A stretch of 48,669 nt of DNA from Centipeda noxia ATCC 43541 (GTDB lineage: Bacteria > Bacillota > Negativicutes > Selenomonadales > Selenomonadaceae), in assembly GCF_000160555.1 (NCBI RefSeq), contig NZ_GG749279.1, positions 95,915 through 144,583 of the forward strand, in the 5' to 3' direction. The notes under the pieces were generated by a model. That model worked only from the letters and a program-made list of their open reading frames with translations, did not search any database and had not been told where the DNA came from. The position numbers and the translations under genes are program-made. Positions 37,819 through 38,359 of the stretch are shown one piece after another (the first letter of the stretch is position 1; each line of letters opens with the position of its first letter).

Positions 37819-37868
37819 AAAAAACCCTTGAACAAACTCTGTTTATGAGCGCTGTTCAAGGGTTTTTC
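37819..37868. terminator. Bidirectional terminator between convergent perR and the AdoMetDC-like gene
   Basis: AAAAACCCTTGAACA (37820-37834) is complementary to TGTTCAAGGGTTTTT (37853-37867), with an 18-base loop and A/T tracts on both sides. Confidence 0.9.
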
Positions 37869-37900: not shown

Positions 37901-38359
37901 CTATCCGCGATTGCGTCGCGCAAGAATACGGATCACCTTGGCGCCCGTACTTTTGATCTTGCGTATAGGGGCAACGCGGGTTGTGGTTTTCGGACGAATC
38001 TCCGACGGTGCGCGAAAGTCGCCTCGCCGCAGATGTGTGCTCTTGATTTTTTCCGGTTGGAATATATTGCGCATGACATGCGCGATGGGATCGAGTGCTG
38101 CATCCTCACAGCAGAGATAGATGTCGAGCGATACATGACGCAGATCCGGATGAACGTGAAGTGCGAGATGACCGTCCGGCAGCAGTGCCATCAAGGAGAT
38201 ATGACCGTTTTCCTGTACATCTGTGATCGTCTGCAGAGGAACGAGATCAAGTGCCGCAAGTGTTTCGGAGACTTTGACACGAAGGGCTTCTTCATTGCTG
38301 AACGATTCGCCTTTGCAGTTAAAAAAATCCACCGTCAGCAGTCTCGATTGAATGTTCAT
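37901..38359 (-). CDS. S-adenosylmethionine decarboxylase-like protein lacking the pyruvoyl-forming serine (pseudoenzyme candidate)
   Basis: This 152-residue protein has the class 1b bacterial AdoMetDC fold. The N-terminal strand-helix unit (4-40) is followed by the processing region, where DGHLALHVHPD (62-72) replaces the usual ESHISIHTWPE. The serine that normally cleaves the chain and becomes the pyruvoyl group is Gly63. The other catalytic residues recalled for Thermotoga AdoMetDC are kept at the same positions: Ser55, His68 and Cys83 (DIYLCCED). RGDF near 112 and a basic tail of about 35 residues end the protein. It therefore cannot self-process in the standard way. It has its own promoter and no speE neighbour. 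GGAGGAG lies before the ATG. Confidence 0.78.
   Translation of the reverse strand: MNIQSRLLTVDFFNCKGESFSNEEALRVKVSETLAALDLVPLQTITDVQENGHISLMALLPDGHLALHVHPDLRHVSLDIYLCCEDAALDPIAHVMRNIFQPEKIKSTHLRRGDFRAPSEIRPKTTTRVAPIRKIKSTGAKVIRILARRNRG

Follow-up and report, generated by a model that had tools for sequence, protein, structure and literature searches.

What can a homologue of AdoMet decarboxylase (AdoMetDC, SpeD) do once the serine that forms its pyruvoyl group has given way to glycine? The question is raised by a short gene in the window, the whole stretch of 48,669 nucleotides that was analysed, whose product combines this substitution with a basic C-terminal tail. In the class-1b enzyme of T. 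maritima, residue Ser63 is converted to the pyruvoyl group and both His68 and Cys83 are required (PMC10407285, section 7), and the title of PDB entry 1tmi names an S63A non-processing mutant. The reading favoured here, at a probability of about 0.5, is that the gene encodes a tailed form of SpeD peculiar to its class, in which a non-enzymatic function persisted in several lineages after catalysis had gone, and that the product in the lineage of the window is a pseudoenzyme. Dead AdoMetDC folds as such are known already, in the prozyme, in fused bacterial domains and in human spermine synthase, where the catalytically dead N-terminal domain serves dimerisation. No report of a free-standing, tailed, class-wide bacterial dead AdoMetDC was found among the titles and abstract beginnings of the open-licence PMC literature searched.

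The gene and its locus

The gene occupies positions 37901-38359 on the minus strand, stop codon included, and encodes a probable tailed SpeD-like pseudoenzyme of 152 aa with an ATG start, as judged from the open reading frame list, Pfam and a class-wide profile. This agrees with the original prediction of an AdoMet decarboxylase homologue, for which no strand had been given. The strong promoter of its own that had also been predicted is matched by a sigma-70-type promoter-like site, TTGACG-17-TATAAT, at minus-strand positions 38429-38401 (11/12 consensus matches), the 3' edge of which lies 41 bases ahead of the start codon.

Between the gene and the convergent perR, repeat search and folding revealed a perfect 15-nt inverted repeat (37820-37867), which is likely a two-way terminator common to both genes. 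Folded as part of the tailed-SpeD gene transcript, it has an energy of -27.6 kcal/mol (z -6.6); it is absent from the list of a simple terminator scan, which admits loops of 3-8 only. With the promoter-like site on one side and the inverted repeat before perR on the other, the gene looks like a single transcription unit.

An AdoMet decarboxylase fold with glycine at position 63

Residues 1-114 (38018-38359, minus strand) form an AdoMet decarboxylase-fold domain, recognised by Pfam, AlphaFold2, Foldseek and VIA, that ends in the last β strand with a KRG-type motif common to the window protein and ordinary SpeD. Residues 8-113 match Pfam PF02675 (AdoMet_dc; E 7e-15, 55.7 bits at a cut-off of 25), and the score of 48.6 bits against NCBIfam TIGR03330, which describes the Bacillus-type enzyme, falls under its cut-off of 75.65. 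AlphaFold2 models were made of the window protein and of a relative, L042, each from just 12 sequences; that of the window protein has a block-mean pLDDT of 83-94 over residues 11-110 and resembles T. maritima AdoMetDC (1vr7/1tlu) at a Foldseek E of 1e-8 and a VIA Z of 15.8, with an rmsd of 2.4 over 115 residues.

Codon 63 (38171-38173, minus strand) is GGT, placing glycine, within the local sequence PDGHLALH, at the site of the pyruvoyl-forming serine, and the predicted replacement of the self-cleaving residue is evident in the window sequence itself. The Gly form, we infer, neither self-cleaves nor decarboxylates anything. Ser55, His68 and Cys83, which had been placed at these same numbers, are all present, and for His68 and Cys83 this is what a class-1b enzyme requires; Ser55 proved not to be a kept residue of the family, being serine in 36 of 147 genomes. 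Compared with the class-1b enzyme (SpeD/SpeH; 1tlu/1vr7, TIGR03330), the window protein is alike in fold, domain length, His68 and Cys83, but lacks the pyruvoyl serine, carries a tail of about 38 residues, and has Asp for Glu at position 11 and His, Tyr in most relatives, for Trp at position 70.

The fold match extends to human spermine synthase (3c6k; Z 12.6), in its AdoMetDC-like domain at the N terminus. Both are proteins with an AdoMetDC fold that are not AdoMetDC, although the window protein is tailed and free-standing: its reading frame of 152 aa is not fused to an aminopropyltransferase and has a start, a promoter-like site and a likely terminator to itself. In Victivallis-type proteins a non-cleaving C-terminal SpeD domain is fused to an active SpeD, according to an excerpt of PMC10407285. 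The likeness is that of a bacterial SpeD domain without self-cleavage, judged for the window protein from its sequence, whereas the tailed protein is single and belongs to a family that almost all of the searched genomes of the class contain.

The basic C-terminal tail

The tail comprises residues 115-152 (37904-38017, minus strand) and continues a RGDFGxxxDMKP motif (here RGDFRAPSEIRP), followed by a low-confidence linker and a C-terminal amphipathic helix at residues 138-149. The same architecture, in which RGDFGxxxDMKP follows the last domain strand and leads through a variable linker to a helix of the type PLRRVRNTGAKVIKLLSR, was found in all 147 class genomes read. Both AlphaFold2 models place a helix after the linker, with low confidence throughout the tail. 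The basic character that had been predicted is confirmed by a net charge of +13 over residues 102-152 of the window protein, and the mean over 114 rows is +11.2 for these residues and -4.6 for the domain. The helix is strongly amphipathic, with a mean maximal hydrophobic moment of 0.71 vs 0.37 in shuffles (168 related rows). In a 41-row class-wide alignment the invariant columns are R112, in the last strand, and P123, in the tail; R112 is a domain residue that also occurs in ordinary SpeD.

Below E 0.03, a profile of the tail matched no further protein in a set of 13 genomes, and its best match among solved structures (E 0.015) is to a molecule named PLZ2.3. In a sample of the phylum, the 41-row profile matched 267 of 398 genomes; among the matches listed, those outside the class end at or before model position 126, bar two that read through a stop codon, and in none of them was the tail seen.

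Charge and conservation would fit binding of nucleic acid by the tail, as had been suggested. A structured RNA or the ribosome is favoured as its partner because particular tail residues are conserved, beyond what charge and amphipathicity would explain, though the assignment is tentative, and a protein partner is a near-equal possibility. The inner membrane is a less likely one.

Gene neighbourhood

Among 12 named loci, perR and mreB adjoin the tailed-SpeD gene in seven and mreB alone in an eighth, with the PerR-like match of L042 (29% identity) left out of the perR count. In 20 other loci, each of 18 kb and two of them incomplete, a CtsR match lies at most 9 kb away in ten, and none of ten marker genes was found in eight. 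In families f34 and f35 (L147:8944-9992, L148:8290-9489) the gene is immediately divergent from the ctsR of a ctsR-mcsA-mcsB-clpC operon. Since neighbourhoods differ between families, gene context points to no partner, and synteny was rejected as a clue to one, there being no fixed neighbour.

The position between perR and mreB in Selenomonas-type loci, the strength of the amphipathic moment and the polyamine-modified peptidoglycan of some Negativicutes, described in an excerpt of PMC10628300, would together agree with an envelope protein whose basic helix lies on the inner membrane, linked to polyamine-decorated peptidoglycan. This explanation is improbable, however, as mreB is a neighbour in Selenomonas-type loci only, with ctsR-clpC or other genes elsewhere, and the conserved Asn-Thr-Gly-Ala-Lys identities appear to exceed what a lipid anchor would need.

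Distribution in Negativicutes and the state of residue 63

Named genomes yielded 12 relatives, eight from Selenomonas or Centipeda and four uncultured, mostly from the rumen. The family of the window, f1, is assigned to Selenomonadaceae, which NCBI taxonomy places within the class Negativicutes, because its DNA is identical to named loci. A search with a profile built from 23 members detected the tailed protein, mostly as a single copy, in 357 of 380 class genomes and in 228 of the 234 of high quality, and a rerun on 57 more distant genomes of the class, four of which were picked for having no earlier match, detected it in 53. It is absent from G190 and G199, which are 99-100% complete, and so can be lost.

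Residue 63 was read in 147 class genomes, 91 of them from the family of the window, to which the count is weighted: Gly occurs in 113, Ser in 23, Ala in four, Cys in three, Thr in two, and Phe and His in one each. All 91 genomes of the window family have glycine, as do 11 of 11 named loci, at least four of which duplicate genomes already in the count. A different picture emerges by family, most of the 34 being sampled by one genome: 12 have Gly only, 17 Ser only, two Ser mixed with Cys or Ala, and three other residues only, which brings Ser63 to 19 of 34. The original prediction had asked whether Gly63 is conserved across Negativicutes and had taken a predominance of Ser63 among homologues as the mark of an isolated mutation or error. 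Conservation holds for the window family and fails for the class, and which residue predominates depends on the unit, Gly leading by genome (113/147) and Ser by family (19 vs 12). With glycine fixed in one family and serine present in more than half of them, the substitution is a lineage-wide change, neither an error nor class-wide, and the pseudoenzyme state likewise does not extend to the whole class.

The remainder of the site has been kept unevenly. Among the 113 Gly63 genomes, His68 is retained in 106 and Cys83 in 103; Cys83 occurs in 14 of the 23 Ser63 genomes and in none of the 11 where residue 63 is A, C, T, F or H. Asp79 and Cys15 are nearly invariant in the tailed family. Positions 11 and 70 do not vary among 19 rows of tail-less SpeD, yet nearly throughout the tailed family they are altered, Glu11 to Asp and Trp70 to Tyr, His or Phe, mostly Tyr.

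These data bear on whether the protein is still an active enzyme that processes itself at a different residue or uses another cofactor. The fold and the His68/Cys83 pair are retained, and since Ser63 is kept in 23 of 147 genomes, relatives may well be enzymes. For the Gly lineages, however, the idea is very hard to sustain: position 63 offers neither hydroxyl nor thiol, Cys83 has also gone from the 11 genomes in which residue 63 is neither Ser nor Gly, and no known catalytic motif was recognised by eye in the tail. The cofactor variant of the original prediction found no support.

The Ser63-bearing tailed proteins L080 and L108 score 143.5 bits each, well above the AdoMet decarboxylase cut-off, and positions 11, 55 and 70 of such rows differ from those of SpeD without a tail. 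They are candidate pyruvoyl enzymes with another substrate. SpeDA and SpeDC, pyruvoyl arginine and ornithine decarboxylases that need Ser63, are SpeD homologues other than the AdoMetDC of the cell, as an excerpt of PMC10407285 describes. The tailed protein resembles them in being such a homologue and, in the Gly lineages, differs in lacking Ser63; in other families, tailed proteins that have kept the serine could belong to the SpeDA/SpeDC kind.

Automatic annotation would call the Gly63 relative L005 (G182) an adenosylmethionine decarboxylase, as its 81.2 bits exceed the TIGR03330 cut-off of 75.65. Since a Gly63 protein can pass that NCBIfam threshold, any assignment of a polyamine pathway in Negativicutes that takes the tailed gene for speD may be wrong. 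Vpar_0438, labelled 'AdoMet decarboxylase' and possibly of either SpeD type, falls 18-fold in Veillonella co-culture, according to an excerpt of PMC6529473.

Selection and the history of Ser63

Purifying selection acts on the gene. Among 14 Selenomonas-type sequences the median dN/dS is 0.093 overall, 0.108 in the domain and 0.044 in the tail, as calculated from 87 pairs that are not independent of one another and that remained when four identical pairs of the 91 were left out. The original view that the gene is not simple debris is borne out by class-wide conservation, by dN/dS near 0.1, and by the promoter-like site and likely terminator of its own. An isolated mutation, a sequencing error and a pseudogene were each ruled out as explanations of the window gene by presence in 357 of 380 genomes, low dN/dS and Gly63 in 91 of 91. 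The sole broken copy seen, from Selenomonas infelix (L040:4995-5579), has a frameshift near residue 107 that puts the tail in another frame, through either sequencing error or decay.

Trees of the tailed family were built with column 63 omitted and tail-less SpeD as the outgroup. A quick tree of 105 rows, for which half of the f1 rows were dropped and duplicates merged, requires at least nine changes of the Ser63 state, and a careful tree of 65 rows, with six long-branch rows dropped and own-family and outgroup rows thinned, requires seven changes at the residue. Deep branches of these trees are weakly supported. By the AU test, a tree that unites every non-Ser row in one clade is rejected (p 6e-36), so that Ser63 has been lost at least twice, and one that unites every Gly row is not (p 0.10). 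Because the outgroup and the first branches within the family carry serine, Ser63 is likely the ancestral state of the tailed family. Tailed rows deviate from tail-less SpeD at positions 11 and 70 even where Ser63 is retained, which suggests that the function had shifted before the serine was lost.

Other SpeD and SpeE proteins

A second speD and a speE, which the original prediction had left to a genome search, are both present in the genome of the window, the former as a class-1a SpeD with its serine kept (L002; 281 aa, 409 bits against TIGR03331). A broader comparison drew on 78 genomes that were chosen to span families rather than at random, with relatedness uncorrected. The tailed protein is carried by 74. 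Of these, 56 encode a second AdoMet_dc protein; in the other 18, of which 16 reach a completeness of 90% or more, none was found at E 0.1. Within these 18, speE is present in eight and was not found at E 1e-10 in ten, eight of the latter being at least 90% complete. All 18 have a tailed protein without Ser63 (17 Gly, 1 His), and a second AdoMet_dc protein accompanies the tailed one in 23 of 23 Ser63-bearing genomes.

The original prediction had offered, among other possibilities, a prozyme-like activator, that is, a dead paralogue that binds and activates the true AdoMet decarboxylase of the cell. The trypanosomatid prozyme is such a catalytically dead paralogue with the AdoMetDC fold (PMC5201418, in excerpt), and the window protein is likewise an AdoMetDC homologue without the pyruvoyl serine, its deadness being deduced from sequence comparison. 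The class-1a SpeD and SpeE of the window genome and the second AdoMet_dc protein of 56 carriers are in keeping with such a role. The window protein differs, however, in resembling the short bacterial class-1b form rather than the long eukaryotic one and in having a basic tail, and class-1a SpeD is distant kin to it, whereas the partner of the prozyme is a close paralogue. A prozyme would always be accompanied by an active AdoMetDC, and in 18 of the 74 chosen carriers no AdoMet_dc protein was found besides the tailed one; in such genomes the Gly form is kept with nothing to activate and, where a detectable speE is lacking too, with no spermidine synthase to serve. Activation of a true AdoMetDC is on this evidence a very unlikely role, not supported for the family as a whole by presence and absence, though it could still hold in lineages with a class-1a SpeD.

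Proposed function

The favoured reading, a tailed SpeD whose non-enzymatic function persisted as catalysis was lost, can be set out as a sequence of steps. A class-1b AdoMet decarboxylase homologue would have acquired the basic tail at its C terminus no later than the ancestor of Negativicutes, and the self-cleaving Ser63 would then have been lost in several lineages, that of the window included. The Gly form is most likely a binding protein, and a dimeric one to judge from the fold. Its emptied active site, in which His64, His68 and usually Cys83 are kept, would be a pocket for a small molecule, for example AdoMet, decarboxylated AdoMet or a polyamine, while docking on an anionic macromolecule would fall to the tail. 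Where a family has retained Ser63, its tailed protein may in addition still be a pyruvoyl enzyme.

A more specific version, which we consider doubtful, holds that this near-core gene of the class is an AdoMet decarboxylase turned regulator, whose active site reads the level of AdoMet or polyamine and whose tail relays it to RNA or the ribosome, the serine having been lost because selection kept the tail-borne function and not decarboxylation. A sensor of AdoMet or polyamine without a role at nucleic acid, in which a ligand in the old active site alters how the tail contacts another protein, is a somewhat better possibility, if still a tentative one. It draws on the retention of His68 and Cys83 in most Gly63 genomes, on the near invariance of Asp79 and Cys15, and on a structure of T. 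brucei AdoMetDC/prozyme in which a putrescine is labelled as a prozyme site (PMC5201418, in excerpt). The changes at Glu11 and Trp70 tell against it, however, in that the ligand may differ, as does the uniform loss of Cys83 in genomes with a residue other than Gly or Ser at 63. Conservation of the pocket may also be a matter of simple fold maintenance.

If the favoured reading is correct, a near-class-wide protein that is most conserved at the end of its domain and in its tail, while Ser63 comes and goes, would exemplify clearly how an enzyme fold can switch jobs, with intermediates of the switch surviving in sister families. Were the protein a polyamine sensor, it would bear on how the supply of polyamines is balanced in these diderm bacteria, certain members of which decorate the cell wall with polyamines.

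Mobile elements and speE operons

The plasmid collection gave one weak match (31% identity), and so did the phage collection (MT839461.1:1078-1452, 24% identity over 82% of the query); the latter record, a 4.3-kb unannotated 'Bacteriophage sp.' entry from faeces, may be bacterial DNA.

In several genomes a speE that exceeds its cut-off occurs where the tailed Gly protein is the sole AdoMet decarboxylase homologue, and in G190 and G199 it occurs without any. The neighbourhoods of these speE genes are L178, L179, L181, L182, L184, L185 and L186 (G146, G164, G190, G199, G202, G116, G224). In the operons L178 and L182, whose genes were named by family search, speE adjoins nspC, which encodes carboxynorspermidine decarboxylase and exceeds its cut-off, and the same operons contain a relative of carboxynorspermidine synthase and a lysine/ornithine-decarboxylase-like gene, both of which score under theirs.
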